Of a stretch of 64,000 nucleotides of DNA, positions 28,532 to 64,000 are shown piece after piece; positions within the stretch are counted from its first letter, which is position 1; the number at the start of each line of letters is the position of its first letter. The notes beneath the pieces were generated by a model. That model saw only the letters and a list, made by a program, of their open reading frames with translations. It was not told the origin of the DNA and searched no databases. Made by a program: the position numbers and the translations under genes. Source of the DNA: Terrimonas sp. (GTDB taxonomy: Bacteria; Bacteroidota; Bacteroidia; Chitinophagales; Chitinophagaceae); the NCBI RefSeq assembly GCF_003075435.1, contig NZ_QCZJ01000023.1, positions 1 through 64,000 of the forward strand, given 5' to 3'.

Positions 28532-29209
28532 ATGATAAAGATTAAAGACCTTGAAAAGATATATCGCACGGAAGAAGTAGAAACGGTAGCGCTCAATAAG
28601 CTTTCTTTTGAAGTAAAAGATGGTGAATTTGTGGCGGTGATGGGCCCATCAGGTTGTGGCAAGTCAACATTGCTTAACATACTTGGATTGCTGGATGATC
28701 CTGATGCGGGCAGCTTTTTGTTTAATGGTATTGAGGTGGCACATTTTAATGAGCGCAAAAGAGCCGACCTGCGCAAGCATAATATCGGTTTTGTATTCCA
28801 GAGCTTTAATCTTATTGATGAATTAACAGTGTTTGAAAATGTAGAGCTGCCATTGATATACACCGGGGTAAAATCTGCAGATCGTAAAAAAAGGGTAGAA
28901 GAAGTGCTGGATAAGGTACAGATCATGCACAGGCGTAATCACTATCCCCAGCAATTATCAGGTGGTCAGCAACAGCGTGTGGCTGTGGCGCGTGCAGTGG
29001 TAAATAATCCAAAATTAATTTTGGCGGATGAGCCAACAGGTAATCTTGACAGCAGCAATGGTAATGAAGTAATGCAGATGCTTACTGATTTAAACGAACA
29101 GGGAACAACCATCATAATGGTTACCCACTCCGAGCATGATTCGAGGTATAGCCATCGTATTATACGCATGCTGGACGGGCAAACGGTTACGGAGAATATA
29201 TTGGTATAA
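28532..29209 (+). CDS. ABC transporter ATP-binding protein, MacB/LolD type
   Basis: 225 residues, one complete nucleotide-binding domain. Walker A GPSGCGKST (38-46), Q-loop in FVFQSFNLIDELTVFENVEL, signature LSGGQQQRVAVARA, Walker B LILADEPTGNLD, and H-loop VTHSEH. The sequence type is that of ATPases that drive FtsX/MacB-fold permeases by mechanotransmission. It is the only ATPase gene in the window and lies directly upstream of at least fourteen permease genes, so it probably serves several of them. Confidence 0.94.
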   Translation: MIKIKDLEKIYRTEEVETVALNKLSFEVKDGEFVAVMGPSGCGKSTLLNILGLLDDPDAGSFLFNGIEVAHFNERKRADLRKHNIGFVFQSFNLIDELTVFENVELPLIYTGVKSADRKKRVEEVLDKVQIMHRRNHYPQQLSGGQQQRVAVARAVVNNPKLILADEPTGNLDSSNGNEVMQMLTDLNEQGTTIIMVTHSEHDSRYSHRIIRMLDGQTVTENILV

Positions 29210-29269
29210 GAAACAGCCTCTCCAAAAGGCGGAAGGAGAGATAGTCATTTAAAATTTAAAACAAAACAT

Positions 29270-29491
29270 ATGACACAGCAGTATCAAACCAAAATGCAAC
29301 AAATCACCATGTTTGTCATATTGCTTGTATTGGTGATTGTCATTGCTCAAAAAGTATCGGCGGGCACCTGCGTTGCAAGTCAGTATGAGGTAGTTCAATG
29401 TGATGAAAACACGGCAACTGAATCAGAGAACGTTTCATTTGAGGTAAGTGATTTACCCTGGAGTCCTTTTATTGCTTTTCTAACCCGTTAG
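29270..29491 (+). CDS. Small exported peptide with two cysteines, hypothetical
   Basis: 73 codons, no family recognised. A hydrophobic segment (about 13-27, ITMFVILLVLVIVIA) is followed by QKVSAG, a possible signal-peptidase site. The mature part would be about 41 residues with Cys33 and Cys45 and an acidic stretch. It sits between the ATPase and the first permease on the same strand, 60 bp after the ATPase. It could be a membrane-anchored helper of the exporter, a secreted peptide, or a chance frame. Met9 is an alternative start. Confidence 0.45.
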   Translation: MTQQYQTKMQQITMFVILLVLVIVIAQKVSAGTCVASQYEVVQCDENTATESENVSFEVSDLPWSPFIAFLTR

Positions 29492-29632
29492 ACAAACATC
29501 CGCTTTCCTTAATATCATAATCCCGGACAGAGAAGCTATTGCCTTTTTTGTTGCATTACAAAATGGAACGAGAAGGTTATGCGGGAAGGAATGTGGAAAT
29601 GTGGGAGAGTGGGAATGTGAAAATGTAAGTAA

Positions 29633-29686
29633 CTGCTGAAAGCTGAAAGCTGATAGCTGACGGCTCAAAGCTCAAAGCTTATCGCT
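29633..29686. repeat. AGCTGATAGC repeat, copy abutting permease 1
   Basis: CTGCTGAAAGCTGAAAGCTG, then ATAGCTGACGGCTCAAAGC, ending directly at ATG 29687. Confidence 0.65.
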
Positions 29687-32122
29687 ATGTTTAAGAACTA
29701 TATAAAAATAGCATTCAGAAACCTTGCAAAGAATAAAGTTTTTTCTGTTATAAATATTGCCGGACTTGCCATTGGTATTGGTTGTTTTGTTCTCATTGCC
29801 TTATATGTAATGGATGAATTGAGCTTTGATCGTTTTAATACAAAAGGCGATCGTATCTACCGTATCAGCTCTGATATAAAATTTGGCGGCGCCGAAACCC
29901 GCTATCCTTTTACCTCTGATATGATGGGGCAGATATTTAAAAAAGATTTTCCTGAAGTAGAAGATTATACACGCATTTATACTTCTAACGGTTCAAAGCT
30001 TGTAAAAAAAGGAAGCCAGTTTATTAATGAGATAAAAGTAGGTCATGCTGATTCTACCCTCTTTAATATTTTTACGCTGCCTGCAATAGCGGGCGATACG
30101 AGGACTGCCCTTAATGAGCCTAATACAGTTGTTATTACGGAATCAACCGCAAAAAAGTATTTTGGAACAACCAATGCCATTGGAAAAATTATTGAAACCA
30201 ATGATAATGATAAAACTTTATATAAAGTAACTGCCATCATAAAAGATATTCCCTCTAACGCACATTTTAATTTTGACTTTATCTTCTCTATGAAGAATGT
30301 GGATTATAACTGGGGGCAGATCATGAGCCATAATTTTCATACGTATTTATTGCTGAAACCCGGAACTGACGTTAAAGCATTTGAAAAAAGAAGCCTTGAT
30401 CAATATGTAAACAAATATGTTTTGCCTGAAGCCAACCAGGTAATGGGTATCTCCAGTATGGCAGATTTTGAGCGGGAAGGTAATAAGCTTAAATATTCCC
30501 TTACACCCATGCTTGACATTCATCTTTATTCAGGCAGGCCATTTGAGTTAAGTGCAGGCGGAAATATTCAGTATGTATATATATTTTCTCTTGTAGCTAT
30601 TTTTATTTTGTTGATCGCGTGTATCAATTTCATGAATCTTACCACAGCGCGTTCTGCCAACAGGGCAAAGGAGGTGGGTATTCGTAAGGTGCTTGGCACA
30701 GATAAAAAAAGTTTGATCGCGCAATTTCTCAGTGAGTCCACGTTAATGGCGCTCGTTTCTACTATACTTGGTATAGTGTTGGTTTTTTTAGCGTTGCCAT
30801 TCTTCAACAATGTTTCGGGTAAAACAATGAATGTTTATAACCTGCTTACACCTTTATTTCTTTTTTTCCTGCTGGCGCTTCCTTTTGTAGTTGGATTGAT
30901 ATCCGGAAGTTACCCGGCTTTTTTTCTCTCTTCATTCAAACCCATACAGGTATTAAAAGGTAAACTGAAAACCGGTGGTGCAAACAGTAGTTTGAGAAGT
31001 GTACTGGTGGTTTTTCAATTTGTTACATCTATTGTATTGATCATCGGTACAATTATTATTTACAGGCAGTTGAATTATATACAATCAAAAAGCCTGGGCT
31101 ATTCAAAAGACCAGGTGTTGATCATTAACGATGCCTATACTTTAGGTAAAAACGCAGAAACATTCAAGCAGGAAATGTTGCAGCAACCCGGTGTTGTAAA
31201 AGGAACGCTGAGTGGCTTTCTTCCAACGCCATCTAACCGCAGTGATAATCTTTTTTCAAAATCACCACAGTTGGATGTAAAGAGTGGTTTTTCAATGCAG
31301 GAATGGAATGTTGACTATGATTATATCAATACTTTAGGTATGGAACTGGTAGCCGGCAGAAATTTTTCAAAAGATTTTGGTACAGATTCATCTGCAGTTA
31401 TCCTGAATGAAACCACGGCAAAAAGCCTGGGCTATGATGATCCGATCGGGAAACCTGTTTATTCTATTTATAATCCTGAAACAAATGAAACCCGGAAGTA
31501 CACAATAATTGGCGTGGTAAAAGATTTTCATTTTGAATCTTTAAAGAGAGATATCGACAAACTTGGGTTATTCCTGAGAAGAAGTACCGGGCTGGTATCA
31601 TTTAAGGTAAATGCGGCAAATGCTCCACAGGTAATAAAAACGGCTGAAAGGAAATGGAAAGCCTTATCACCGCAAATGCCTTTTAATTATAAATTTTTAG
31701 ATGCAGAGTTTAGCAGTGTTTACAACGCCGAACAGCGTGTAGGAAAAATCGCTTTGTCGTTTGCAGCGCTGGCAATAGTTATTGCATGCCTTGGCTTGTT
31801 TGGGCTGGCAGCCTATATAGCAGAGCAGCGTACAAAAGAAATTGGTATAAGAAAGGTGTTGGGTGCAAGTGCAACAAGCCTTGTAGCTATGTTGTCAAAA
31901 GATTTTTTAAAGCTTGTTGTGATCTCATCCATCATTGCTTTTCCATTGGCCTGGTGGAGTATGAAAAACTGGCTGCAGGATTTTGCTTATCGTATAAATA
32001 TCAGTTGGTGGGTGTTTGTAATAGCAGGTGTAATAGCCATATTCATTGCTTTGATCACAGTGAGTTTCCAGGCAATAAAAGCAGCAATGGCAAACCCGGT
32101 GAAGTCACTCCGTACGGAGTAA
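29687..32122 (+). CDS. ABC permease 1, FtsX/MacB type with two FtsX halves
   Basis: 811 residues. Architecture shared by the whole array: TM1 (about 19-44), periplasmic core domain 1 (45-290), three to four helices (about 292-460), periplasmic core domain 2 (460-670), three C-terminal helices (about 680-800). The coupling motif KEVGIRKVLG occurs near 325 and again as [11 protein letters not shown] near 720. The motif GSYPAFFLSSFKP...LKG follows the first helix set and NPVKSLRTE closes the protein. One chain thus equals two MacB-like 4-TM units, so it may pair with two copies of the 28532 ATPase. Proteins of this fold move substrates by periplasmic mechanical force rather than through a channel. 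Substrate unknown. Confidence 0.93.
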   Translation: MFKNYIKIAFRNLAKNKVFSVINIAGLAIGIGCFVLIALYVMDELSFDRFNTKGDRIYRISSDIKFGGAETRYPFTSDMMGQIFKKDFPEVEDYTRIYTSNGSKLVKKGSQFINEIKVGHADSTLFNIFTLPAIAGDTRTALNEPNTVVITESTAKKYFGTTNAIGKIIETNDNDKTLYKVTAIIKDIPSNAHFNFDFIFSMKNVDYNWGQIMSHNFHTYLLLKPGTDVKAFEKRSLDQYVNKYVLPEANQVMGISSMADFEREGNKLKYSLTPMLDIHLYSGRPFELSAGGNIQYVYIFSLVAIFILLIACINFMNLTTARSANRAKEVGIRKVLGTDKKSLIAQFLSESTLMALVSTILGIVLVFLALPFFNNVSGKTMNVYNLLTPLFLFFLLALPFVVGLISGSYPAFFLSSFKPIQVLKGKLKTGGANSSLRSVLVVFQFVTSIVLIIGTIIIYRQLNYIQSKSLGYSKDQVLIINDAYTLGKNAETFKQEMLQQPGVVKGTLSGFLPTPSNRSDNLFSKSPQLDVKSGFSMQEWNVDYDYINTLGMELVAGRNFSKDFGTDSSAVILNETTAKSLGYDDPIGKPVYSIYNPETNETRKYTIIGVVKDFHFESLKRDIDKLGLFLRRSTGLVSFKVNAANAPQVIKTAERKWKALSPQMPFNYKFLDAEFSSVYNAEQRVGKIALSFAALAIVIACLGLFGLAAYIAEQRTKEIGIRKVLGASATSLVAMLSKDFLKLVVISSIIAFPLAWWSMKNWLQDFAYRINISWWVFVIAGVIAIFIALITVSFQAIKAAMANPVKSLRTE

Positions 32123-32129
32123 GCCCTCA

Positions 32130-32161
32130 CTCCCTGTTTCCTTGCGCGAGGAAAGAGGGAG
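32130..32161. repeat. Post-stop hairpin after permease 1
   Basis: Arms CTCCCTGTTTCCT / AGGAAAGAGGGAG, one mismatch, 6-nt loop, 8 bp after the stop codon. Same position as the GC-rich hairpins farther along the array. Confidence 0.6.
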
Positions 32162-32201
32162 AGGCCGAAACACTGAAAGTGTATAAATATAAATCACTAA
32201 A

Positions 32202-32249
32202 TGCTGAAACCTGACTGCTGCAAGCTGATAGCCGATGGCTTACAGCTAA
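32202..32249. repeat. AGCTGATAGC repeat, copy upstream of permease 2
   Basis: TGCTGAAACCTGACTGCTG, then CAAGCTGATAGCCGATGGC. Ends about 10 bp before ATG 32260. Confidence 0.6.
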
Positions 32250-32259
32250 ATAATTTCAT

Positions 32260-34638
32260 ATGATGCTTAAAACTATAATTAGGAACTTCTGGAAAAATAA
32301 AGGCTACGGTTTTTTAAACATATTCGGGCTGGCAATTGGTATTACCTGTGCCGGGTTAATTTTTCTATGGGCGGAAAATGAACTGGATTACGACAACTTT
32401 CATACAAAAAAAGATCAGTTATATTTCATAAGAGAGAATCAGAAGTACGATAGCTATGTTGCAACATTTGGTTCAACCCCTGCTCTGTTAGCCCCTGCTA
32501 TGCAGACTGAAATTCCGGGGATTGCCAATACCTGCAGAATAGGCGGAGAAAATTCAACAACACTGGTAAGCATCGGTGACAGGTCAGTATATGCTTCAGG
32601 CGGATATGCTGATTCCTCTATCTTCAGCATGTTTACCTTGCCTTTTACAGAGGGTAAGGCCCAAAGCGCATTTGCTCAATTATATTCAATGGTTATTACG
32701 CAGTCAACTGCAAAAAAGTTTTTCGGGGATGATAAAAATGTGGTAGGTAAAACAGTACGTGTTGATAACAAGCAGGATTATATTATATCCGGGGTGATAA
32801 AAGATATTCCCCAAAACTCTTCGGTAAAGTTTGAGTGGATAGCGCCTTTTAAAATATGGTATAACGAAAACGAGTCATGGGCGCAGTATTGGGGCAACAA
32901 CTGTTTGTCAACCTATGTTGAATTAAAACCTGGTGTAAATCCCGCTTCTGTAAATAAACTATTATATGATTTTATTCAGAAAAGAGAGGATCAGTCTATA
33001 GCACGGCCATTTTTATTTGCTTTAAAAGACTGGCGCCTGCGTAATGAGTTTAACAATGGTGTGCAAACCGGCGGCGGCAGAATAGAGTATGTAAGGTTGT
33101 TTTCTATTATAGCGTGGATCATTTTGCTGATCGCCTGTGTAAATTTCATGAATCTTGCTACTGCAAGAAGTGAAAAACGTGCAAGAGAAGTGGGTGTACG
33201 CAAAGTATTGGGTGCGGGTAAAGGAAGCCTTGTTTTCCAATTTATTGGAGAAACGATGCTCATGGCTGCCTTATCTGCAATGCTTGCAGTAGTGCTCATG
33301 GTATTAATTTTACCTGTCTTTAATTTGTTGGTGCAGAAAAACCTGGCGATAGGATTGTCGCAGCCTTTGCATATTCTTTCCCTTTGCGCTATTACTATTA
33401 TTTGCGGATTAATTGCCGGAAGTTACCCGTCATTATATTTATCTTCTTTCAATCCTGTATTTGTATTAAAAGGATTAAAAATAAAAACAGGCAGCGCCAC
33501 TTTTATAAGAAAAGGGCTGGTGGTGTTCCAGTTTACAATATCCATCATACTCATTGTAAGTACTATAGTAATTTATCAGCAGATACAGCATGTTAAAAGC
33601 AGGAATCTCGGTTTCAATAAAAATAACCTGCTGCAGATAGACATGAATAGTGAAATGAAAAAAAATTATGCTGTTGTTCAACAGGATTTGTTGCAGAGTG
33701 GTGTTATTGAGGATCTTGCTATATCGAACTACAATACTTTATATGACGGTAATAATACCGGTGGCTTTACATGGGAAGGCAAGACTTCCGATAACCAGGT
33801 ATTGATATCCATGCGTTATGTTTCCCCGGGTTATATGAAAACTACAGGAATGAAGATTTTGCAGGGAAGGGATCTGGTGAGTACGGATAGCATAGGATCG
33901 CGGAATATGAATGTAATGATCACACAGTCTCTGGAAGAATTAATGGGCAAAGAAAGTGCGGTAGGTAAAACATTGCGTATGGGTAAAGATAGTAATGCAA
34001 CTGTTGTAAATGTTGTAGGTGTGGTAAACGATTACATGTATGGCAATATGTATGGCAAACCAGATCCTGTGATGTTTATTTGCGTAAGCCCTGAAAATGC
34101 CTCCATGTTATATGCACGATTAAAGCCGGGAGAAAATATAGAGCCGTCTTTAAAGAAGATCGAAGCGGTGTTGCGAAAGGATAATCCCGGATATCCCTTT
34201 ACCTATCATTTTGTGGATGACCAGTTTAACCAGATGTTTAATAATGAGCAGTTGATAAGTAAATTATCCAGGGTGTTCTCAATGCTGGCGATCATTATTT
34301 CCTGTCTTGGGTTATTTGGTCTGGCGGCATATACTGCCGAGCGAAGGATAAAAGAGATAGGCATACGTAAAGTGCTTGGTGCAAGTGTTACGGGAATTGC
34401 TTCTTTACTATCCACAGAGTTTTTACAACTCGTATTAATCTCCTGTATTGTTGCCTTTCCAGTATCATGGTGGATGATGCATAAATGGTTACAGGATTAT
34501 CAATACAGGATTGAGATCAACTGGTGGATATTTATTGCAGCTGGCATTGCAGCTATATTCATTGCGCTGCTTACGATCGGCTTTCAATCCATAAGAGCGG
34601 CAATGGCAAACCCGGTGAAAAGCTTGAGAACAGAGTAG
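32260..34638 (+). CDS. ABC permease 2, SEKRAREVGVRK subgroup
   Basis: 792 residues; starts MMLKTIIRNFWKNKGYG, so the second Met (32263) is an equally good start. The N-terminus departs from the KNYxKxAWRN consensus of the array. First coupling motif [17 protein letters not shown] near 310, second [14 protein letters not shown] near 710. The segment RNEFNNGVQTGGGRIEYVRL before the second helix group places it with permeases 3, 7, 9 and 14. It ends NPVKSLRTE. A GSYPSLYLSSFNP loop is present. Lies 137 bp after permease 1. Confidence 0.92.
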   Translation: MMLKTIIRNFWKNKGYGFLNIFGLAIGITCAGLIFLWAENELDYDNFHTKKDQLYFIRENQKYDSYVATFGSTPALLAPAMQTEIPGIANTCRIGGENSTTLVSIGDRSVYASGGYADSSIFSMFTLPFTEGKAQSAFAQLYSMVITQSTAKKFFGDDKNVVGKTVRVDNKQDYIISGVIKDIPQNSSVKFEWIAPFKIWYNENESWAQYWGNNCLSTYVELKPGVNPASVNKLLYDFIQKREDQSIARPFLFALKDWRLRNEFNNGVQTGGGRIEYVRLFSIIAWIILLIACVNFMNLATARSEKRAREVGVRKVLGAGKGSLVFQFIGETMLMAALSAMLAVVLMVLILPVFNLLVQKNLAIGLSQPLHILSLCAITIICGLIAGSYPSLYLSSFNPVFVLKGLKIKTGSATFIRKGLVVFQFTISIILIVSTIVIYQQIQHVKSRNLGFNKNNLLQIDMNSEMKKNYAVVQQDLLQSGVIEDLAISNYNTLYDGNNTGGFTWEGKTSDNQVLISMRYVSPGYMKTTGMKILQGRDLVSTDSIGSRNMNVMITQSLEELMGKESAVGKTLRMGKDSNATVVNVVGVVNDYMYGNMYGKPDPVMFICVSPENASMLYARLKPGENIEPSLKKIEAVLRKDNPGYPFTYHFVDDQFNQMFNNEQLISKLSRVFSMLAIIISCLGLFGLAAYTAERRIKEIGIRKVLGASVTGIASLLSTEFLQLVLISCIVAFPVSWWMMHKWLQDYQYRIEINWWIFIAAGIAAIFIALLTIGFQSIRAAMANPVKSLRTE

Positions 34639-39980: not shown

Positions 39981-42374
39981 ATGATAAAGAACTATTTCAA
40001 AATCGCCTGGCGGAATTTAAAATCCAGTAAAGCTTATACTGCTATAAACATTATTGGATTATCGCTTGGTATTGCCTGCAGTATTTTAATTTTTACATTT
40101 ATCAGTCATCAGCTGAGCTATGATAATTTTCATCATAATGCAAACAGCATATATCGTTTAGTTACAGAGTGGCATGATGAAGAAGTAAATCATTCGCAGG
40201 CTGTACCGCAGCCGCTGGGCAAAGCTTTTCGTACAGACTTTTCATTTGATGAAAATACGGCCCGTATTGTTGATTACAGGAATACATTAATTACGCTGAT
40301 CGGCGATAAACAAAACAGAAAGTTTAACGAAGAAAATGGTGTTGCATTTGTAGAACCCGAATTCTTCAGCATATTTAATTTTCCGTTATTGGCAGGAAAT
40401 GCCAAAACCGTATTGCAAAATCCCAATGAAGCGCTGGTAACGGAAACCATTGCCAGGAAATATTATACTTCCGCTGATGCAGCCATTGGCAAAACCATCC
40501 GGCTTGATAACGGAACAGATTTTGTGATCAAAGGCATTTTAAAAGATCTTCCCGCTAATACTGACCGCCGCCAGAATATATTCTTATCATATCAAAACTT
40601 AAGAGACCGGAACGCATGGCTTGCCAGCGACAGCAGTTGGGGCGGTGTGTATAGTGGCAGCCAGTGCTATACATTGTTAAAGCCCAATATAACAGAAGCA
40701 CAGGTAAATAAAGCATTATCGCTGATTGTAAATAAAAATTTTGAAGGGAGAGATGCAAAAGTGTGGACATTCAGGCTGCAGCCCTTAAGCGATATTCATT
40801 TCAACCCTGATTTTAATGGGTATGCAGATAAAGGCTATTTATGGGCGCTTGGTTTTATAGGTTTGTTTTTATTGATAACAGCCTGTGTAAATTTTGTAAA
40901 TCTTGCTACAGCGCAGGCGCTTAACCGTTCAAAGGAAATTGGGATCAGGAAAGTGTTGGGCAGTTTAAAAAAACAGGTGTTCTGGCAGTTTATTGCGGAA
41001 ACTGCATTGATAACCCTTGCTGCTGTCATTATTGCCTGTATTATGGCCTGGCTTGCTTTGCCATTCTTCAACCAGTTGTTCAGATCGCAGATGCAATTGC
41101 ACCTGCTGGGTTGGCAAATGATTTCTTTTATACTGATAACGGTATTGCTTGTTGTGTTTTTTTCCGGTTCATATCCTGGACTTGTACTGGCAAGGTTCCA
41201 GCCTGCTCTTGCTTTAAAAAGCAAGCTTTCCCAAAAACATATCGGTGGTTTTTCATTGAGAAGAGTACTGGTGATTACACAGTTCGCTATTTCGCAAATG
41301 CTCATTATAGGCACGATTGTAATTGCCAGCCAGGTAAATTATTCAAAGCATGCAGATCTCGGTTTTAATAAAGAGTCTATTGTAATACTGCCCCTGCCAC
41401 AAAACGATAATGTAAAGGCAAATACTTTAAAAACACGGCTTGCCGCCTTGCCTGGTGTTGAAAAAGTTTCATTATGCTTTCAGCCGCCGGCATCGCAAAG
41501 TAATAATAGTACCGGTATAAGGTATGCTAACCGTGCTGAAGACGAACATTGGAGCATTAATATGAAGAGCGCGGATGATCAATACCTGAATACATTTGAT
41601 TTAAAGCTGGTTGCAGGCAGAAATTTTTTCCCTTCAGATACAACAAGAGAATTCCTGGTGAATGAAACATTTGTAAAAAAACTGAATATTTCATCACCCG
41701 AAGAAGTTATCGGTAAAAGAATCAGTGTAAACGGAGGTACTATTACTGCCCCGGTTGTTGGTGTGGTAAAAGATTTTAATAATTATTCTCTGCATAGCCA
41801 GATTGACGCGATATGCATCATGCCTAATGCGGCAAGGTATTCTAATTGTGCTGTAAAGGTCAATGGCAATAATATAAAATCAACGCTTGCATCTTTCGAT
41901 AAAATATGGAATGAAACCTACCCCGACTATCTCTATAATTACCAGTTTCTTGATGAGCGCATCGGGGAGTTTTACAGGATGGATGGTATTATGCTGATCA
42001 TGATAGAAGTTTTTGCTTTTATCGCAATCATTATCGGGTGCCTGGGATTATACGGGCTTGTATCATTTATGGCATTGAGAAAAACCAAAGAAATCGGTGT
42101 ACGCAAAGTGCTCGGCGCTTCCATGCAAAGCATTCTTTGGTTATTTGGTAAAGAATTCAGCAGGCTTTTGATAATAGCTTTCATTATTGCGGCGCCTGTT
42201 GCCTGGTGGGCAATGAGTAAATACCTGCAGGATTTTGAATACAGGATTCCGCTTGGTATTGAAGTGTTTGCTTTGGCAATAGCAGCCACATTTATAATAG
42301 CATTTGTAACGGTAGGGTACAGGTCATTACGGGCAGCAATAGCTAATCCGGTGAAGAGCTTGAGGATGGAGTGA
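39981..42374 (+). CDS. ABC permease 5, LGLYGL subgroup
   Basis: 797 residues beginning [19 protein letters not shown]. It belongs with permeases 10 and 12: the N-terminal block [14 protein letters not shown], the helix [20 protein letters not shown], the block [13 protein letters not shown] in periplasmic domain 2, and [14 protein letters not shown] at the C-terminal helices. Coupling motifs are [11 protein letters not shown] and [11 protein letters not shown]. The loop reads [19 protein letters not shown]. The end is NPVKSLRME. Intact. Subgroup membership cuts across array order, since its relatives are five and seven genes downstream. Confidence 0.93.
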
Positions 42375-55401: not shown

Positions 55402-57780
55402 ATGCTCAAAAACTATTTTAAAACAGCATGGCGCAATCTGATGAAAAAGAAAGTTTTTTCTTTCATCAATATTTTAGGGCTTACAGTAGGTATAACTGTG
55501 TGCATGATGATTTTCCTGTTCATTATGAATGAATTCAGCTTTGATAATTTTCATAAAGACGGGACGCAGATATACCGCGTGATGCGGGGATTTAAAAGAG
55601 AAGGGAAATTATCAGACGTGGCTTACCTGTCAGGTCCGTATGCTCCGGCTTTACTGAATGATTTTAATGGACAGATACAAAAGGCTGTTCGTGTTAATGA
55701 AAATGACAACCTCGTTACAATCGGGGAGCGTTCTTTTCATCAAAAAAAAGTATTGAATACAGACAATAACTTTTTCACTTTCTTTTCATTTCCACTGATT
55801 AAAGGCGATCCATCTACCGTTTTAAAAAATCCAAACAGTGTTGTATTAACTGAAACTACGGCAGAAAAATATTTTGGAGATGCTGAGCATGCTATGAATA
55901 AGGTAATTACAATTGATAAAACAATTCAGTTAAAAGTTACCGGTATTGCTAAAGATGCTCCTTCTAACTCCCATCTTAATTTTGAAATGGTTATGCCGCT
56001 TGAAAATTATAAAGATAGGAGCTGGATGACAACATGGATCAATAATGCTTTGTATACCTATGTTTTACTTGCGCCCGGTGCTTCAGAAGCCGACATAGAA
56101 AAGCAGATGCCGGCTTTTATGGAAAAGTATATGGGTGCAGACATGAAAAAGTATGGCTTTAATTTTAACCTGTCGCTTACGCCGCTGAAAGATGTATATT
56201 TTGACAAGGATAGTTTTGATGGTATAAGACATGGTGATAAAACAGTGGTATATATATTCCTGTCTGTGGCATTGCTGATCCTGCTGGTGGCATGCATCAA
56301 CTTTATGAATTTATCAACAGTAAGAGCTGCCGAACGATCAAAAGAAGTTGGTTTGCGTAAAGTGTTAGGTGCGCTGCGTTATAATCTTGTCTGGCAGTTT
56401 ATTGGTGAGTCTGTATTGCTTACAACCATTTCCTGCATCTTATCGGTAGCATTGCTGTTGTTGATTATGCCGGTATATAACCAGTTGCTTGGCTATTCAC
56501 TGACCATTTCGTGGAATACTTACCAGGTGTATGCTTTTTTACTGGGCATAATTGTAGTGGCCGGAGTGCTTGCAGGTTGTTATCCTGCCTTTGTGCTTTC
56601 TGCATTCACTCCTATACAGGCGCTTAAAGGGAAATTCAGGTTTGGAAAAGAAGGCGTTTCATTCAGGCATGCTTTGGTTGTTTTGCAATTTGGTATTTCT
56701 GTATTCCTGATTTTTGGTACGCTTATTATTACGAAGCAAATGAATTATATAAAGAACAAACAGTTGGGCTATAATAAAGAGCAGACATTGATTGTGCGTA
56801 TAGATAATGAGGATATTTATAAAAATATGGATGTATTCAAAAAGGGGCTTTTGAATACAAGTGGTATAGCGTCAGTGTCATTAATGTCTGGTGAACCTGG
56901 TGGTTTTTTTGATGGATATACTTTTGATGTAGAAGGGCATAGTGAAAGATGGAATGCAAACACTGAGTTTTCAGATTTTGACTTTGTAAAAACATTAGGA
57001 TTGAAAATTATTGCCGGCAGGGATTTTTCTGCACAGTTTCCAACAGATACTACAAGCGCGGTATTGATCAATAAAACTGCTGCAACAAAGTTAGGCTGGA
57101 GCCCGTCTGAGGCGATAGGGAAATGGATAAAGAATACGGTAAGGGATGATGAAAAGCGAAGGATTATAGGTGTAGTGGATGATTTTAATTTTAAATCGCT
57201 TAAACAAAATATTGACGCGCTTGTTATTTCGCCGGCTATGGACAGGCGGGTTATATTAGTGCGGTTAGCGCCCGGAGATATTCAATCAAAAATAGCCTCA
57301 GTTAAAAATGAATATATCAACACAGTTACCGGTTATCCTTTTGAATATTCATTTCTTGATGAGCAGTTTAATGAAATGTACAGGAAAGATATTATGCAAC
57401 AAAGAATATTGACCATCTTTGCTGTGCTTGCCATTTTTGTGGCATGCCTTGGTTTGTTTGGGCTTGCTTCGTTTACTGCTACCAGGCGCATGAAAGAAAT
57501 TGGCGTTCGAAAAGTATTAGGCGCATCAGTAAACGGCATAACTATTTTACTGGCAAAAGATTTACTGAAGCCTGTATTAATAGCTACTATAATTACGCTG
57601 CCGGCGTGTTACTATGTTATGAATAAATGGCTGCAAAATTTTTCATATAAAATACCGCTCAGCTGGTGGATTTTTGCTTTAGCGGCATTGCTTACACTTT
57701 TAATTGCTTTGGTAACAGTATGCATAGAAACAATGAAAGCCGCGATTGCTAACCCGGTAAAAAGCCTTAGAACAGAATAA
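55402..57780 (+). CDS. ABC permease 11
   Basis: 792 residues beginning MLKNYFKTAWRNLMKKKVF. First coupling motif KEVGLRKVLGAL, second [12 protein letters not shown]; loop GCYPAFVLSAFTPIQALKG. The last helices begin ACLGLFGLASFTATRRMKE. Periplasmic domain 1 ends LTPLKDVYFDKDSFDGIRHG, unlike the KWxLYS subgroup. Periplasmic domain 2 contains AGRDFSAQFPTDTTSAVLIN. C-terminus NPVKSLRTE. The start is preceded by AAATTTCAAATATCAAATG, a stretched form of the common leader. Intact. Confidence 0.93.
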   Translation: MLKNYFKTAWRNLMKKKVFSFINILGLTVGITVCMMIFLFIMNEFSFDNFHKDGTQIYRVMRGFKREGKLSDVAYLSGPYAPALLNDFNGQIQKAVRVNENDNLVTIGERSFHQKKVLNTDNNFFTFFSFPLIKGDPSTVLKNPNSVVLTETTAEKYFGDAEHAMNKVITIDKTIQLKVTGIAKDAPSNSHLNFEMVMPLENYKDRSWMTTWINNALYTYVLLAPGASEADIEKQMPAFMEKYMGADMKKYGFNFNLSLTPLKDVYFDKDSFDGIRHGDKTVVYIFLSVALLILLVACINFMNLSTVRAAERSKEVGLRKVLGALRYNLVWQFIGESVLLTTISCILSVALLLLIMPVYNQLLGYSLTISWNTYQVYAFLLGIIVVAGVLAGCYPAFVLSAFTPIQALKGKFRFGKEGVSFRHALVVLQFGISVFLIFGTLIITKQMNYIKNKQLGYNKEQTLIVRIDNEDIYKNMDVFKKGLLNTSGIASVSLMSGEPGGFFDGYTFDVEGHSERWNANTEFSDFDFVKTLGLKIIAGRDFSAQFPTDTTSAVLINKTAATKLGWSPSEAIGKWIKNTVRDDEKRRIIGVVDDFNFKSLKQNIDALVISPAMDRRVILVRLAPGDIQSKIASVKNEYINTVTGYPFEYSFLDEQFNEMYRKDIMQQRILTIFAVLAIFVACLGLFGLASFTATRRMKEIGVRKVLGASVNGITILLAKDLLKPVLIATIITLPACYYVMNKWLQNFSYKIPLSWWIFALAALLTLLIALVTVCIETMKAAIANPVKSLRTE

Positions 57781-58012
57781 GTGGGTGATTAAAGATTGAA
57801 TACTTGATAAGTTGGTGATACCTGTAACAAGGTTTTGTTCGCTTGCGGACGTTATTGTGTTCGTTTTCGTACATCTGGCAATACTGAAGCTTTAGTCGTT
57901 GCTGATTTTCAATTAGTTGAACTAATGGCATATGAGTTGAGCCTTTTTTACACTTCATGTCAGCATATTGGTCCAACTTATCAAGGCGGAGCGTCTTAAA
58001 CAACATCTTATT
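57781..58012. other. Atypical spacer between permeases 11 and 12
   Basis: 232 bp with neither the GC-rich hairpin nor the AGCTGATAGC repeat. It contains TTGTTCGCTTGCGGACG and TTCGTTTTCGTAC. A minus-strand open frame crosses it, but it shows no family similarity. It may mark a rearrangement point. Confidence 0.4.
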
Positions 58013-60409
58013 ATGTTCAAAACATATTTAAAAACAGCCCTCAGAAATTTAAAAAAACATAAAGGAAATTCTTTCGTAAATATCGCGGGGCTCATTGTTG
58101 GACTCGCCGCCTTTCTTTTGATATTTCTTGTAGTGCAGTATCAGCAAAGCTTTGATGATTTTCACCAGAACAAAGACCAGGTGTATCGTGTGGTTCGCAT
58201 CGGCAGAAATGCTGAAAACAGGGAATACAGGACAGGTGTGCCTTTTCCTGTTACCCAGGCCTTACGCATTGATCTCCCCCAGTTAAAAAATGTTGCTGCA
58301 ATTTTTGGAGATGGCAATGTCCAGGTAAGCGCTACAAGCGAAGATGGCACTGCCATTAAAAAATTCAAGGAGAAAAACATATGTGCTGCTGATCCCCATT
58401 TCTTTGAAATGTTCAATTTTCCGATGGTTTCGGGAAATAAGCAAACAGCATTGCATGATGTAAATACAGTGCTCCTTACCAAAGATGTTGCAGCAAAATA
58501 TTTCGGAGACTGGCATAACGCGATGGATAAAACATTGAAGTTATACGGAGAAGTGATGAAGGTAACAGGAGTGCTTGAAAATATACCTGATAATACGGAT
58601 TTCCCTCTTGGTATTGTGGTTTCATATGCTACACTTATGAACGCGGGCAATACTGCCGATTGGTCTGGCATATCAGATGACAATTATTGCTTTATTCAAT
58701 TGGATAAAAATGCTTCGGTTGACCATTTTAATAAATTGCTTGATGAGTTTACGGATAAGCATATCAAACCTGTAAACCCGGGATATTTTCTTTCGTTGCA
58801 ACCCTTGAAGGAAATACATTATGATAAAAGGTATGGCAATTTTAGCGGGCGTACATTTGGCAGGGACCTGGTGCTTGCGCTTAATATTATCGGAGCTTTT
58901 TTATTGATCATCGCCTGCATAAATTTTATCAATATCACAACAGCCAGGGCCGTAAATCGTGCACGGGAAGTTGGTGTCAGAAAAGTATTAGGAAGCAGCA
59001 GAAAGCAACTCATATTGCAGTTTCTTGGTGAAACCGGTATTACAACTCTTGTCGCGTTGATGGGGTCGTTGTTGGTGGTACTAGTATGCATTCCTTTTGT
59101 AAACGAATTGCTGGATATTCATTTAAATATTGCTTTTTTATTCACGCCCGGTTTTATGCTATATGTTTTTGCTGTGTTTTTTGCTGTTGCTTTTCTTTCC
59201 GGCATTTACCCGGCATTGATTTTGTCCGGTTTTAAATCCGTTAATGTTTTAAAGAGTTCAATCAACATAAATACCAGGGGTATTTCTTTGAGAAGAGCTT
59301 TGGTAGTTTTCCAGTTTGTAATTGCCCAGGCATTGATTATAGGTACTCTCGTTGTTGCATCGCAGATGGATTATTTCCGGAATGCAGATATGGGTTTTAA
59401 TAAGCAGGCAGTGATCAATGCAAGCTTTCCCGGCGATAGCCTCAGCGTTACAAAAATGGATGCTTTGAAAACTGAAATTGAAAAAATTAATGGCGTAAAG
59501 CAGGCAAGTCTCAGCATTTTTGCTCCTGCCGGCAGCGGTGGCTGGGCAACGAATTTAAATACTTCGGAAAATAACAAATCCAACCCCGGTATGGTTGTTC
59601 AGATGAAACCGGCCGATACTTCGTTCTTCGGTTTGTATGAATTAAAACTTGTTGCAGGCCGTATTTATTTTCCATCAGATACCATGCGCGAATTTGTTGT
59701 AAATGAAACAACGGTGAGAAATATGGGTTTAACAAATCCGGATAAGGCTATCGGAAAAATGATAAAAGTGGCAGGGAGATCCGGACCGATTGTTGGAGTA
59801 GTAGAAGACTATCACACATTTTCCCTGCGCGAAGCAATCAGTCCCACAGTAATGTCAACCATAAAAGATGCTTACCAAGTTGCTAATATAAAAATTGATA
59901 TGCAAAAATCGCGGCAGGTTATTGCTGCTTTGCAAAAATTATGGAACAGCTTTTATCCCGATTATGTATTTGAATATGATTTTCTTGATCAGACATTAGC
60001 TGCCTATTATAAGCAGGAAAACGAAATGGCAACATTATATAAAATATTTTCAGGCATTGCCATTTTTATTTCCTGCCTGGGTTTATACGGATTAATTGCT
60101 TTCATAGCTGCTCAACGCAGAAAGGAAATAGGCATCCGGAAAGTATTGGGAGCCCCTGTATACAATATTATTTTAATGTTATCAAAAGAATTTACCATGC
60201 TCATCATTATTGCATTTCTTATAGCAACGCCTTTAGCATGGTATTTTATGCAGGGCTGGTTACAGCAGTATACATACCGGATATCAATGGATGCTGGTTT
60301 TTTTGTTGTTACAATAATTTGCTCTTTAATTATAGCCTGGATAACTGTAGGGTATACAACCGTAAAGGCGGCTATTGCTAACCCAGTTAAATCACTCAGA
60401 ACGGAATGA
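58013..60409 (+). CDS. ABC permease 12, LGLYGL subgroup
   Basis: 798 residues from ATG 58013 (MFKTYLKTALRNLKKHKGN); an upstream start at 57968 would add 15 residues with no counterpart in the other members. Subgroup marks: VVQYQQSFDDFHQN, QFVIAQALIIGTLVVASQMD, REFVVNETTVRNM, LGLYGLIAFIAAQR. Coupling motifs REVGVRKVLGS and [11 protein letters not shown]. Loop GIYPALILSGFKSVNVLKS, in which Ser replaces the usual Pro. Ends NPVKSLRTE. The next permease begins after only 40 bp. Confidence 0.93.
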   Translation: MFKTYLKTALRNLKKHKGNSFVNIAGLIVGLAAFLLIFLVVQYQQSFDDFHQNKDQVYRVVRIGRNAENREYRTGVPFPVTQALRIDLPQLKNVAAIFGDGNVQVSATSEDGTAIKKFKEKNICAADPHFFEMFNFPMVSGNKQTALHDVNTVLLTKDVAAKYFGDWHNAMDKTLKLYGEVMKVTGVLENIPDNTDFPLGIVVSYATLMNAGNTADWSGISDDNYCFIQLDKNASVDHFNKLLDEFTDKHIKPVNPGYFLSLQPLKEIHYDKRYGNFSGRTFGRDLVLALNIIGAFLLIIACINFINITTARAVNRAREVGVRKVLGSSRKQLILQFLGETGITTLVALMGSLLVVLVCIPFVNELLDIHLNIAFLFTPGFMLYVFAVFFAVAFLSGIYPALILSGFKSVNVLKSSININTRGISLRRALVVFQFVIAQALIIGTLVVASQMDYFRNADMGFNKQAVINASFPGDSLSVTKMDALKTEIEKINGVKQASLSIFAPAGSGGWATNLNTSENNKSNPGMVVQMKPADTSFFGLYELKLVAGRIYFPSDTMREFVVNETTVRNMGLTNPDKAIGKMIKVAGRSGPIVGVVEDYHTFSLREAISPTVMSTIKDAYQVANIKIDMQKSRQVIAALQKLWNSFYPDYVFEYDFLDQTLAAYYKQENEMATLYKIFSGIAIFISCLGLYGLIAFIAAQRRKEIGIRKVLGAPVYNIILMLSKEFTMLIIIAFLIATPLAWYFMQGWLQQYTYRISMDAGFFVVTIICSLIIAWITVGYTTVKAAIANPVKSLRTE

Positions 60410-60449
60410 ATTTGAAATAATCTCAAATTTAAAATTTCAAGTCCCTGAT

Positions 60450-62837
60450 ATGTTTAAAAATCTTTTGCTCGTTGCATTACGAAATTTTAAAAGAGACAAG
60501 TGGTATAGTCTCCTGAATATTCTCGGGCTTACCATAGGCATCACCTTTGGATTATTCCTGATTTTTTATATTAAAGATGAATTGAGTTTCGACAGGTATC
60601 ATGAAAAAGCTGAGCGGATATTCCGCATCAATTCTATTATTAAAGAGGCTGACAGGGATACCATGCGCTGGGCAATAGCGCCATTTCCAATGGGACCGGC
60701 GCTGGCAAAAGATTATCCTGAAGTTGAAGAAGCCGTTCGGTTTGTACGAAGCGGAAGAACAATGTTTAAGAATGGTGGATTGAGATTGTATGAAGACAAA
60801 GTTTTTTTTGCAGACAGCAATGTATTCCGTGTATTTACCTGTCCGTTTATTGAGGGCGATCCGAAAACCGCATTGATAGAACCCAATACACTGGTGCTGT
60901 CAGAATCATCTGCTATCAAATTCTTTGGGGCAAATAAAAGTTACCTGGGTAAAACCCTTGAAAATGTTAATGGCAGAGTATATAAGGTAACAGGAGTGAT
61001 GAAAGATGTTCCTAAGAATTCTCATTTGATCTTTAATATACTGGTTTCGAGAAATACCCTGCCGGCAGACTTTGCCAATAACTGGGGAAGTTTTGATTTT
61101 TATACCTATGTGTTATTAAAGCCGGGAACCACGGCTGCGGCTTTTGACACCAAGATGAAGCCGATGTATGATAAATATCTTGCCTCGATTTTCGCACAGT
61201 ATAATATTAAGATATATTTCGAAACACAACCCATTACTTCAATTCATCTTCATTCAACTACTACTAATGAGCCTGAAGAAACAGGCAGCATGTCATACAT
61301 TTATATCTTTTCCGCGGTAGCCTTTTTTATGTTGCTGATCGCCTGTATTAATTATATGAATCTTACTACGGCAAGGTCAGCAAGAAGAGCCAAAGAAATA
61401 GGTATAAGAAAAGTTACCGGTTCAACTAAAGTACAGCTGGTATTACAATTCCTGGTTGAGTCAACACTTACCGCTTTTATCGCCTTGCTGATGAGTATAG
61501 GCCTGATCGCGTTGTTCCTTCCTGTGTTCAATACATTAGCCGGAAAATTTATTTCCTTCGGTACATTATTCAGTCCGGATACTATACTTATTCTGTTGGC
61601 TGTAGTAGTTTTTGTTGGAATTGTGGGCGGCAGTTATCCTGCATTTTATTTATCAAAGTTTAACCCGGTTAAAGTATTAAAGGGAAGCCTTGCCAAAGGC
61701 TCAAGCAATGTTAACCTGAGGAGATCCCTGGTGGTGATACAATTTTCCATATCTATGATCATGCTCATTTGTACCTGGGTAGTATATGGACAACTCAAAT
61801 ATTTAAGAAATAAAGATCTCGGCTTTGATAAAGCCCGGGTGCTGACTGCTTCGGCTGTAACGGACAGGGATATACAAAGTGCTATTCTTTCCTTTAAAAA
61901 CGAAATGCGTAATAATCCCCAGGTGCTTTCTGTAAGCTCTGCCAGCTCTGTGCCAGGGCAGGGTAATGGCTTTAATTTGTTTTCTATTCAAACAAAGGAT
62001 GGTTATACAGATAAAGGAATAGACGTATATGCCATTGATGAAGACTATATAAAAACACTTGGGATAAAACTGGTAAAAGGCAGGAACTTTTCCGGGCTTG
62101 CAGATACGCTGCATGGTATGCTGGTGAATGAGAAGATGATACAGGAATTCGGCTGGGGCGATAATCCTATTGGTAAAAGAGTGAAATTTCCGGGAGATAC
62201 TTCAGGTAATTATCTTGAAGTAGTAGGAGTGGTGAAGGATTTCAACCAAAAATCATTGTATAATACCATCACCCCATTGATTTTATTATACAGGCCTAAT
62301 ACTAATCTTATCCAGTTAAAATTAAGCGCTTCGGATATTCCTGCTGCTATTGCAGGCATAGAAAGCACATGGAAGAAAATATTTCCTGATCTTCCTTTTC
62401 AATATACATTCCTCGACCAGGATTTTGATTCGCAATACGCAGCAGATCAAAAACGGGGGAAAATATTTACGGCATTTTCGGTTCTTACCATTATAATCAC
62501 CTGCCTGGGGCTCTTAGGATTAATAGCATTTACAACAGAACAAAGGCAAAAGGAAATCAGCATACGTAAGGTGATGGGGGCAAATATTAGCCAGATCATT
62601 CCATTGATCACAAGAAATTTTATTGCGCTTGTTGGTATATCATGCATTGTTGCTTTTCCCGTTGCAGGATATTTTATGTCTAAGTGGCTGAAGATATTTC
62701 CATACAATACCGGCTTGAGTATAATGCCTTTTATATTGTCGGCGCTTGTTGTATTGTCCATTACGATGCTTACAGTTATTTTTCATACCATAAAGGCGGC
62801 GGTGGCAAACCCGGTTAAGAGTTTAAGGATGGAATGA
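60450..62837 (+). CDS. ABC permease 13, LGLLGL subgroup
   Basis: 795 residues from ATG 60450 (MFKNLLLVALRNFKRDKWY); an in-frame start at 60375 would overlap permease 12 and has no matching residues in other members. TM1 reads ILGLTIGITFGLFLIFYIKD. The first coupling motif is [12 protein letters not shown], the second is altered to KEISIRKVMGAN. C-terminal helices start CLGLLGLIAFTTEQR, as in permease 4, and the end is NPVKSLRME. The 40-bp spacer has a leader (TCAAATTTAAAATTTC) but neither repeat family, so it may be translated from the permease 12 transcript. Confidence 0.93.
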   Translation: MFKNLLLVALRNFKRDKWYSLLNILGLTIGITFGLFLIFYIKDELSFDRYHEKAERIFRINSIIKEADRDTMRWAIAPFPMGPALAKDYPEVEEAVRFVRSGRTMFKNGGLRLYEDKVFFADSNVFRVFTCPFIEGDPKTALIEPNTLVLSESSAIKFFGANKSYLGKTLENVNGRVYKVTGVMKDVPKNSHLIFNILVSRNTLPADFANNWGSFDFYTYVLLKPGTTAAAFDTKMKPMYDKYLASIFAQYNIKIYFETQPITSIHLHSTTTNEPEETGSMSYIYIFSAVAFFMLLIACINYMNLTTARSARRAKEIGIRKVTGSTKVQLVLQFLVESTLTAFIALLMSIGLIALFLPVFNTLAGKFISFGTLFSPDTILILLAVVVFVGIVGGSYPAFYLSKFNPVKVLKGSLAKGSSNVNLRRSLVVIQFSISMIMLICTWVVYGQLKYLRNKDLGFDKARVLTASAVTDRDIQSAILSFKNEMRNNPQVLSVSSASSVPGQGNGFNLFSIQTKDGYTDKGIDVYAIDEDYIKTLGIKLVKGRNFSGLADTLHGMLVNEKMIQEFGWGDNPIGKRVKFPGDTSGNYLEVVGVVKDFNQKSLYNTITPLILLYRPNTNLIQLKLSASDIPAAIAGIESTWKKIFPDLPFQYTFLDQDFDSQYAADQKRGKIFTAFSVLTIIITCLGLLGLIAFTTEQRQKEISIRKVMGANISQIIPLITRNFIALVGISCIVAFPVAGYFMSKWLKIFPYNTGLSIMPFILSALVVLSITMLTVIFHTIKAAVANPVKSLRME

Positions 62838-62848
62838 CCTCACCCCGG

Positions 62849-62873
62849 CCCCTCTCCGCAAGGCGGAGAGGGG
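62849..62873. repeat. Post-stop GC-rich hairpin after permease 13
   Basis: Perfect 11-bp arms CCCCTCTCCGC / GCGGAGAGGGG around AAG, 11 bp after the stop. The stem tip differs from other copies (GC for AC) with the matching change on the other arm, so base pairing is conserved. Confidence 0.75.
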
Positions 62874-62959
62874 AGCCTAAATACTCAGCAGTTGTGGAAA
62901 TGGCAAGAGCGGGAGTTTACGGAGGCGTGGTAAGAAGTAAGTAGTAAGAATTTTATTAA

Positions 62960-62998
62960 CGCTGACAGCTGATAGCTGATAGCTCATAGCTGACCGCA
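62960..62998. repeat. AGCTGATAGC repeat, copy upstream of permease 14
   Basis: CGCTGACAGCTGATAGCTG, then ATAGCTCATAGCTGACCGC, followed by the AAATTTCAAATCTCAAATG leader. Confidence 0.65.
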
Positions 62999-63026
62999 TA
63001 CAACCATTTCAAATTTCAAATCTCAA

Positions 63027-64000
63027 ATGATAAAAAATTATTTCAAAATCGCCTGGCGTAATTTAAGTAAGAGCAAAGGATACAGCGCTATTAATATTGG
63101 CGGACTGGCAGTTGGAATGTCCGTAGCTATGCTCATTGGTTTGTGGGTAAATGATGAGCTGTCTTATGATAAGTATCATGAAAACTATGATCGTATCGCA
63201 CAGGTAATGCAGCATGCCAGCTTTAATGGTGATATGAGTACTCAATCCGCTAACCCTGCTGCAATGGGACCGGAGATAAGGGCTAAATACGGCAGCGATT
63301 TTAAGTATGTGGTACAGGCATCCTGGGTTGGTGGTCACCTGCTTTCGGCAGGTAAAAAAGTTTTTAATAAAACAGGTATTTTTTTTGAACCTGATGCGCC
63401 GGAAATGCTTACGTTGAAAATGCTGAAAGGAACAAGACAGGCATTGAAAGATCCCTATGCTATCATGCTTTCTCAATCAACCGCAGAGGCAATTTTCGGC
63501 AAAGAAGATCCGATAAACAAAGCTATTAAACTCGACAGGAATTATGATGTTAAGGTAACAGGGGTATACGAAGATCTGCCAGATAATACTACTTTTCATA
63601 ATATACAAATTATGATGCCCTGGGAATTATGGCTTATTCAAAATCCGTGGGTAAAAAGAATGAATGATCCATGGGATAGTAATTTTTCCCAAACCTTTGC
63701 GCAGATCGCTGATAATGCAGATATGCAAAAGGTTTCAGCGAAAATCAAAAACACAAAATTGGATAATGTAGGCCCCGAAGAAAAACGTTATAAATGGGAA
63801 GTATTTCTTCAACCCATGAGCAAGTGGAAACTTTACAGCGAATTTAAAAACGGGGTAAACACCGGTGGCAATATCCGGTATGTTTGGTTGTTTGGTATTA
63901 CCGGCATTTTTGTGCTGGTGCTTGCCTGTATAAATTTTATGAACCTAAGTACGGCACGAAGTGAAAAAAGGGCAAAAGAAGTTGGTATACGTAAAGCTAT
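63027..64000 (+). CDS. ABC permease 14, SEKRAREVGVRK subgroup, cut by window end
   Basis: First 324 codons only, beginning [21 protein letters not shown]1 is VGMSVAMLIGLWVNDELSY. Periplasmic domain 1 ends MSKWKLYSEFKNGVNTGGNI, then the first cytoplasmic coupling motif SEKRAKEVGIRKA runs off the edge. It is most similar to permeases 3 and 9. Since the reading frame is open at position 64000, the array continues to the right by at least this gene. Confidence 0.92.
   Translation, partial: MIKNYFKIAWRNLSKSKGYSAINIGGLAVGMSVAMLIGLWVNDELSYDKYHENYDRIAQVMQHASFNGDMSTQSANPAAMGPEIRAKYGSDFKYVVQASWVGGHLLSAGKKVFNKTGIFFEPDAPEMLTLKMLKGTRQALKDPYAIMLSQSTAEAIFGKEDPINKAIKLDRNYDVKVTGVYEDLPDNTTFHNIQIMMPWELWLIQNPWVKRMNDPWDSNFSQTFAQIADNADMQKVSAKIKNTKLDNVGPEEKRYKWEVFLQPMSKWKLYSEFKNGVNTGGNIRYVWLFGITGIFVLVLACINFMNLSTARSEKRAKEVGIRKA

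Follow-up and report, generated by a model that had tools for sequence, protein, structure and literature searches.

A stand-alone ATPase of a Terrimonas species (Chitinophagaceae) probably drives a whole family of FtsX/MacB-type permeases, many of which are encoded in one long tandem array behind its own gene. The array lies in a stretch of 64,000 nucleotides (the window), bases 1-64000 of the 93,442-bp contig NZ_QCZJ01000023.1 from a genome of 6.2 Mb, and is headed on the plus strand by a periplasmic adaptor gene (26661-27911) and the ATPase gene (28532-29209), each present as the single copy that the original prediction from the window had described. That prediction took the locus for one motor with interchangeable permeases, a view now supported by sequence comparisons; the permeases probably all run on the one ATPase because copy numbers, co-occurrence across the family, a trans arrangement in a relative, shared regulatory boxes and the pattern of conservation all point that way. 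It is likely that the genes specify a tripartite envelope system resembling MacAB and DarBCD, in which exchangeable permeases draw on a common motor.

A probable shared ATPase for many permeases

A separate cognate ATPase for each permease, the arrangement opposed to a common motor, was sought in the Terrimonas genome and was not found, since 27 permeases of the array class stand there against eight ATPases at least 41% identical to the array ATPase, itself counted. Three of these eight adjoin other permeases (on contig C9, of 409 and 390 amino acids (aa); at C2:258883, of 409 aa; and at C1:289891, of 853 aa), and for two further ones on C4 (47% and 42% identity) a search of the whole genome gave no PF02687 permease on the same contig. 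Relatives of the locus were collected from the best 80 of 579 ATPase matches, which lead to 49 genomes and select for high identity, so that the presence of the ATPase there is itself no test. Each of the 49 has exactly one ATPase at 91-99% identity, with every other match at 61% or less, and their permeases number from 3 to at least 21 per genome (five were found in Lacibacter cauensis, G032), these being lower bounds with the best 21 candidates scored.

An even sample of the family (194 genomes including the Terrimonas one, with an ATPase match threshold of E <= 1e-80) gives the ATPase in 94 genomes, in 90 of them at 81% identity or more. It is single in 89 of the positives and accompanied by a second copy in five, at 61-69% identity or, in genome G213, 91%. 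The permease family was sought in the first 80 newly drawn family genomes, each of a different genus, with the best 12 candidates scored and permease numbers again lower bounds: 38 have both ATPase and permease family, 42 have neither and none has only one, and so the ATPase-positive and permease-positive sets are identical across the 80 genera (Fisher p 1e-23). When genome size is held to the range 3.8-6.0 Mb there are 28 genomes with both and 15 with neither. An arrangement in trans is found in a relative, G007, where a single ATPase was found, on contig C3 and with the next 10 kb free of tagged permeases (L041), and where two arrays amounting to 24 permease open reading frames (ORFs), two of which are pieces of one gene, are on contig C1 with no ATPase tagged there.

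The array ATPase is 97-99% identical in three genus-mates, and in comparisons with these, for which the synonymous rate (dS) is near saturation, its ratio of non-synonymous to synonymous rates (dN/dS) is 0.012-0.015 in three pairs. The adaptor gives 0.033-0.050 (two of three pairs computable) and the permease orthologues, which are under purifying selection, 0.041-0.108 (eight of ten computable); judged by these ratios the array ATPase is the most constrained part of the system. As a control, an ATPase of the C9 type, with its own permeases beside it, is 80-84% identical in seven genomes in which the array ATPase is at 92-96%. Similarly, in eight loci with the array ATPase at 91-95%, a second ATPase of the Terrimonas genome, termed ATPase2 and described below, has its counterpart at 77-80% identity.

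The permeases, their repertoire and their known relatives

The array ATPase is of the DarD/LolD/MacB class, carries LSGGQQQR and GNLD motifs and has its named relatives in the Chitinophagaceae. Its best match in NCBIfam is DarD and that of the adaptor, a HlyD/MacA/DarC-like protein with a Pfam HlyD_3 domain and MacA among its matching solved structures, is DarC. On Pfam scans of three permeases each has two MacB_PCD and two FtsX domains, and the whole-genome PF02687 search gives paired matches in each of the 21 array permeases. NCBIfam ranks the family of duplicated orphan permeases (ADOP, TIGR03434) first for the same three, over nearly their whole length but with scores of 318.5, 278.8 and 341.1 bits that are below the curated cut-off of 622.3, and DarB second. 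The scores against the Dar profiles are likewise all under the curated cut-offs (303 of 375 bits for the ATPase, 148-168 of 700 for the permeases and 159 of 450 for the adaptor).

A confident model of permease 3 (34866-37247, plus strand, 793 aa; 54-sequence alignment, pLDDT 87.8, pTM 0.82) has eight long membrane-type helices, short helices at residues 316-325 and 698-706 and a C-terminal helix at 786-792. In MacB a major coupling helix is between transmembrane helices TM2 and TM3 and a minor one is C-terminal (PMC5985334), and in the model the short helices of permease 3 are by position the major coupling helix of each half, with the C-terminal helix as the minor one. A Foldseek search with the model returns YbbP of Escherichia coli first, over the full length (E 3.2e-21, with a modest TM score of 0.47), and MacB next, over about half of the model. 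The sequence match to MacB covers the N-terminal half of the permease and, at a weak level, the periplasmic portion of its C-terminal half. A single permease chain should suffice for one complex, since YbbAP consists of two ATPases on one pseudosymmetric permease (PMC12646458).

The array proper comprises 21 full-length permeases, 14 of which start in the window and seven more at contig positions 65612 to 84901. Thirteen complete genes and a fourteenth cut by the window edge had been predicted, free of frameshifts and with the ending NPVKSLR(T/M)E throughout, and all thirteen ORFs are indeed present and open at 788-817 aa, with this ending in every one (ten with T and three with M). Besides permease 3 they are, all on the plus strand, permease 1 (29687-32122, 811 aa), permease 2 (32260-34638, 792 aa), permease 4 (37350-39794, 814 aa), permease 5 (39981-42374, 797 aa), permease 6 (42583-44988, 801 aa), permease 7 (45046-47412, 788 aa), permease 8 (47723-50095, 790 aa), permease 9 (50218-52587, 789 aa), permease 10 (52773-55226, 817 aa), permease 11 (55402-57780, 792 aa), permease 12 (58013-60409, 798 aa) and permease 13 (60450-62837, 795 aa), the last two counted from starts set at 58013 and 60450, where similarity begins. 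Permease 14 (63027-64000 in the window, plus strand) has 794 aa and ends at contig position 65411. The only interruption of the run is a GFO/IDH/MocA oxidoreductase gene on the same strand (contig 70570-71973), and an NlpC/P60 protein gene is located after it. Intergenic gaps of 40-477 bp make the array looser than a compact operon. With six further permeases scattered over C45, C1 (two), C2, C20 and C3 the genome total is 27, and 19 of the 27 have the NPVKSLR(T/M)E tail, the rest showing small variations of it. A CCTCTCC...GGAGAGG hairpin occurs 14-17 bp after the stop of five of the 21 array permeases (42389, 52602, 55243 and 62851, and contig 65425), and three more times in 12 other stretches of the genome that were scanned.

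Most of the permeases are, as their sequences indicate, old and distinct lineages. Each of the 27 has a higher bit score with a permease of another genome (39-90% identity) than with its own closest paralogue (31-64%), the lead in identity being 3 points or fewer for three of them (45046, 57968 and the one on C3). Single-linkage clustering of 314 permeases at 60% identity, for which loci across the family contribute the permeases within 10 kb of the ATPase so that early array positions are over-represented, yields 131 clusters, of which 77 are single sequences; of the 54 with more than one member, 52 include sequences from different genomes (25 members from 25 genomes in the largest), and the 27 permeases of the Terrimonas genome are distributed over 26 clusters. 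A recent tandem duplication was considered and rejected for most of the permeases, since sequences from other genomes are closer and the clusters span genomes. Mean column identity among the 27, over segments assigned by hand from the permease 3 model, falls from 0.585 in the cytoplasm-facing parts to 0.42 in the membrane and 0.255 in the periplasm, and the same order holds for all 314. Conserved ATPase-facing parts are to be expected of a common motor that serves different ligands, although such sequence conservation is not unique to that arrangement.

Parts of this organisation have counterparts elsewhere. The darobactin export system DarBCD (NF038008, NF038010, NF038007) resembles it in having a one-chain permease, a separate ATPase and an adaptor, and gives the best NCBIfam match of the adaptor and the ATPase and the second best of the permeases, all sub-cut-off, but has one permease where the array has 21. 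ADOP proteins, the best NCBIfam match, share the occurrence as large paralogous sets; the array permeases score 279-341 bits against the cut-off of 622, and an ATPase, an adaptor and a dedicated regulator accompany the array family. ADOP permeases are by their usual definition not next to an ATPase gene, and here the ATPase heads the array. DarBCD is not essential for darobactin production (PMC9055067), and 28 and 33 ADOP-type copies by RAST annotation are given for two Dyadobacter genomes (PMC11573002). MacAB-TolC has similar domains, coupling helices alike by position, an adaptor and a TolC-type channel, but in MacB the ATPase and the permease form one chain that functions as a dimer (PMC5985334), and the array permeases are single chains with a separate ATPase. 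YbbAP(-TesA) of E. coli is alike in that two ATPase subunits, separate from the permease, serve one pseudosymmetric permease chain (PMC12646458), and differs in having 10 helices, as compared with eight in the permease 3 model, and a hydrolase partner.

Sharing of an ATPase is itself on record for importers. In the Terrimonas genome one ATPase gene goes with several membrane units that lack an ATPase of their own, the gene pattern of MsmK, and ECF group II modules are another example of a shared ATPase. MsmK energises several membrane units (PMC4519317), which are nutrient importers with three clients named for Streptococcus pneumoniae, in contrast to the exporter class and up to dozens of candidate clients of the array. 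Bce-type sensor transporters share a type VII permease and, judged by hydropathy, apparently a kinase without a periplasmic domain, but have a 10-helix permease and no adaptor (PMC5985334), whereas the array has eight helices (in the model), an adaptor and an NtrC-type regulator.

A common box, a second ATPase and a candidate channel

Two copies of a conserved box (TGTATCRNNANCGNACR), putative sites of an NtrC-type activator, precede the adaptor gene at 26465-26503 (plus strand, found with a 17-bp pattern) and are followed at 26557-26570 (plus strand) by a TGGCAC...TT element, a candidate -24/-12-like (sigma54-type) promoter of the adaptor with a degenerate -12 part. A TGTATCRAAANCGNACA-like box is before the adaptor in 72 of 75 loci of relatives, and in all 72 a TGGCAY, sought 50-130 bp downstream, follows it, at 90-92 bp in 54, at 68-70 bp, closer by roughly the spacing of one box, in 13 and elsewhere in five; the -12 part of this promoter-like element is one base short or degenerate. 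The nearly fixed distance emerged by aligning on the box and not by use of a sigma54 expression. An expression with textbook spacing was tried and discarded, as it gave sites before only two of the 75 adaptors and, in a looser version, 11 of 75. The TGGCAY element is a sigma54-type candidate by analogy, and the published enrichment of sigma54 with COG0577 permeases in Bacteroidia (PMC12316311) agrees with the promoter reading, assuming the array permeases to be COG0577.

The box is rare in the genome. The 17-bp pattern occurs six times in 6.2 Mb (reversed control 0), namely twice before the adaptor, once each before the C2 permease and ATPase2 on C14, and once each near small genes on C1 and C7. 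A shorter 15-bp pattern occurs four times (control 1), always before permeases: those at 58013 and 72249 (twice) and that on C45. Before permease 12 two 16-bp boxes (57836-57873, plus strand), the second containing an exact match to the 15-bp pattern and the first with two mismatches, are followed by a sigma54-type promoter-like element (TGGCATATGAGTTG, 57926-57939, plus strand), and the permease at C1:105695 has a box with one mismatch. The extra boxes at C1:575787 (L126) and C7:22950 (L128) also have a nearby TGGCAY, and one of them precedes the genes of a pair of small, mutually similar proteins (140 and 139 aa), which on visual inspection seem secreted; by their boxes these genes are possible further members of the regulon.

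The box is a putative binding site of an NtrC-type activator whose gene (C3:165061-166419) is, with that of a kinase (C3:166495-167841), unlinked from the array in this genome. In 70 of the 80 related loci such an activator, 66-82% identical to the C3 protein, is encoded upstream of the ATPase on the other strand, mostly directly beside the adaptor; of the ten loci where none was seen seven offer under 1.9 kb of sequence ahead of the ATPase gene, and three (L041-L043) come from genus-mates or near kin. The sigma54-interaction domain was confirmed in the activator of L047 and in that of the Terrimonas genome. A sigma54 activator usually carries GAFTGA at its sigma54-contact loop. The C3 activator (L121:7061-8416) has GAFTDA, alongside the unusual -12 part of the promoters of the family. 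In the C3 kinase hydropathy predicts two closely spaced N-terminal hydrophobic segments with almost no loop and no periplasmic domain, and among 69 related kinases in the 80 loci 39 have two predicted segments, 22 three, seven one and one four. The kinase looks like an intramembrane type, which by analogy would suit a Bce-like mode of sensing by way of the transporter (PMC5985334).

Control by the OmpR-type regulator and kinase pair at 24162-26368, directly upstream of the adaptor in the window, had been suggested in its place. This pair was rejected as a conserved regulator, as its place is not kept in any of four genus-mate loci (G002, G003, G008 and L042): ORFs of RND-operon size are upstream of the adaptor in G002, G003 and L042, and two other ORFs in G008. 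In L042 an efflux operon of the resistance-nodulation-division (RND) kind adjoins the head of the array on the other strand, with RND and OEP domains confirmed; the ORFs at G002:C4:194401-199860 and G003:C30:45584-51075 are judged by size alone. Between the adaptor and the ATPase a gene for a 23S rRNA-intervening-sequence protein (Pfam) lies antisense (28000-28347, minus strand), and opposite-strand ORFs of 117-123 aa are at the equivalent place in G002, G003 and G008. Upstream of the array, in the region 18738-21099, is a transposase with Mu-transpos_C_2 and rve domains followed by a 248-aa ORF; it seems IS21-like and may explain local rearrangement.

Extension of the sequence to the right, which the prediction had asked for, brought the seven further permeases, no further ATPase of the array kind (none was tagged by BLAST on the contig from 20 kb on) and no TolC-type channel among the five right-flank genes scanned or, equally, among five upstream genes of the window. 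The predicted lack of a channel gene in the window thus stands for the proteins scanned, but an unlinked TolC-family (OEP) protein is encoded at C14:128944-130398, directly downstream of ATPase2 (C14:130418-131089), itself preceded by the box and a TGGCAT element. Likewise the idea of one ATPase holds for the array itself, and has perhaps to be widened to one plus a specialised second ATPase on C14. No PF02687 permease is beside ATPase2 in the whole-genome search. In the loci where ATPase2 is near the array ATPase the channel gene was detected beside it in seven of eight, the contig of the eighth ending there. All nine aligned ATPase2 sequences have LSGGQQQL and GNLN in place of the LSGGQQQR and GNLD of the array ATPase, and these Leu-for-Arg and Asn-for-Asp changes may mean an unequal motor. 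From the shared box and the pairing with ATPase2 we infer that the C14 channel belongs to the array system.

Two other loci of the genome have related parts. At C1:102265-113184 (L134) two of the scattered permeases are encoded behind the genes for an ABC ATPase and an MlaD protein and ahead of a HlyD-type adaptor gene. The locus at C9:118664-128939 (L040) is a separate system of adaptor, TolC-type channel, ATPase (the control used above) and two permeases of 390-409 aa, with a nuclease gene, an NtrC-type activator and a kinase after the permeases.

A possible mechanism and the alternatives to it

In the likely scheme the stand-alone ATPase at 28532 would energise, in trans, about 27 single-chain type VII permeases (21 of the array and six elsewhere), which would share the adaptor at 26661 and the TolC-type channel of C14, encoded with the second, specialised ATPase. 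Each permease has both of the halves that MacB gains by dimerising, and because it carries both, two ATPase subunits would dock per permease, via the major coupling helix of each half and the minor helix at the C-terminus with its NPVKSLRTE tail. Choice of the ligand would fall to the periplasmic domains, in which the permeases differ, and ATP-driven motion would open and close these domains and hand the ligand on to adaptor and channel (mechanotransmission). The NtrC-type activator and the intramembrane-type kinase of C3 would induce the motor unit jointly with the channel unit and some of the permeases. The system is most likely tripartite and inducible, and possibly has a sensing function. 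The ATPase-permease contact, export, binding of the activator to the box, membership of the C14 channel and the substrates are the parts that we infer, and antimicrobial peptides, lipids or other envelope-active compounds are guesses at the substrates by analogy with MacB, DarB, BceB and YbbP.

Several observations weigh against this scheme. Genomes without the system are smaller (median 3.45 vs 5.15 Mb), the genera share ancestry and so the 80 genomes are not independent, and co-occurrence in any case shows dependence and not which ATPase binds which permease; ATPase2 and the two C4 ATPases are possible permease partners. ATPase2 is within 10 kb of the array ATPase in only eight of the 80 related loci, and other TolC-type proteins exist, at least one of them on C9 in a system of its own. 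Three of the six scattered permeases (C20, C3 and the second on C1) have no box within two mismatches in the stretches scanned, and an own box with promoter-like element precedes only two of the 21 array permeases, seven of 104 array permeases in five genomes and one of 239 in loci across the family. As most array permeases are without their own box, the array is probably organised as a few long transcription units. The pattern of a conserved cytoplasmic and a variable periplasmic side may be general to FtsX-type permeases. Finally one permease gene of G007 is broken, split into two ORFs, and single internal stops occur, among the matches listed, in permeases of G008, G009, G048 and G145.

Such broken copies, together with the length of the array, its loose spacing and its few recognisable promoters, could indicate that the permeases are mostly redundant paralogues, debris of duplication with few in use. 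This seems very improbable, given that the thirteen complete permeases of the window are open, that orthologues are under purifying selection and that nearly all multi-member clusters are shared between genomes with the 27 permeases spread over 26 of them; moreover 80 of 102 orphan permeases are transcribed in an acidobacterial genome (PMC10564751). It is also quite improbable that other, generic ATPases serve the permeases and the array ATPase only the first of them: the two C4 ATPases without a PF02687 permease on their contig would be candidates for this, but in all 80 genera sampled permeases are present where the array ATPase is and absent where it is not, and the strong constraint on this ATPase and the trans arrangement in G007 speak for a wider role.

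Other alternatives modify the shared motor and do not replace it. One, which we consider unlikely, is a motor of two ATPases in which the array ATPase and ATPase2 form a heterodimer on the unequal halves of the permease, ATPase2 being weakened or regulatory. It would account for an ATPase2 that has no adjoining permease on C14, is paired with a channel, has the same box and shows the altered LSGGQQQL and GNLN in every sequence aligned, but ATPase2 is less conserved than the array ATPase and its Walker A, Walker B and H-loop letters look intact. A sensor array is possible, although export seems the better guess: here the permeases would mainly be Bce-like receptors, with ligand-driven cycling of the ATPase read by the kinase and export secondary. 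Bce systems have an OmpR-type regulator. The closely spaced N-terminal segments of the kinase and its apparent lack of a periplasmic domain would suit such reading, as would the company that the activator keeps with the motor genes in 70 of 80 loci, and BceAB, homologous to MacB, works with a kinase that requires the transporter (PMC5985334). Against it the adaptor and the TolC-type channel share the same box, which points to export, and the 10 helices and absent adaptor of Bce differ from the eight helices of the model and the NtrC type found here. More doubtful is a receptor-like repertoire that would combine these features, with dozens of old permeases, a motor of two unequal ATPases, one path through adaptor and channel and a single intramembrane kinase reading turnover; if true, the cell would sense and expel many envelope-active compounds with one motor and one circuit.

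Large sets of "orphan" permeases and shared importer ATPases are already on record, and the combination of this permease family with one ATPase, an NtrC-type circuit and an ATPase2-channel pair was not found in the titles and abstract beginnings of the open-licence PMC papers searched. A shared motor is known for some nutrient importers; for envelope transporters of this kind no description of one came to light. Orphan permeases occur by the dozen in Bacteroidota and Acidobacteriota (PMC11573002, PMC10564751) and are not known to have a motor, and the locus offers a candidate motor for the array family, a single ATPase accompanied by an adaptor and by candidates for channel and regulator. If the shared motor is real, deletion of one gene should disable all the permeases at once, and the principle of the shared motor would be extended from importers to mechanotransmission exporters.

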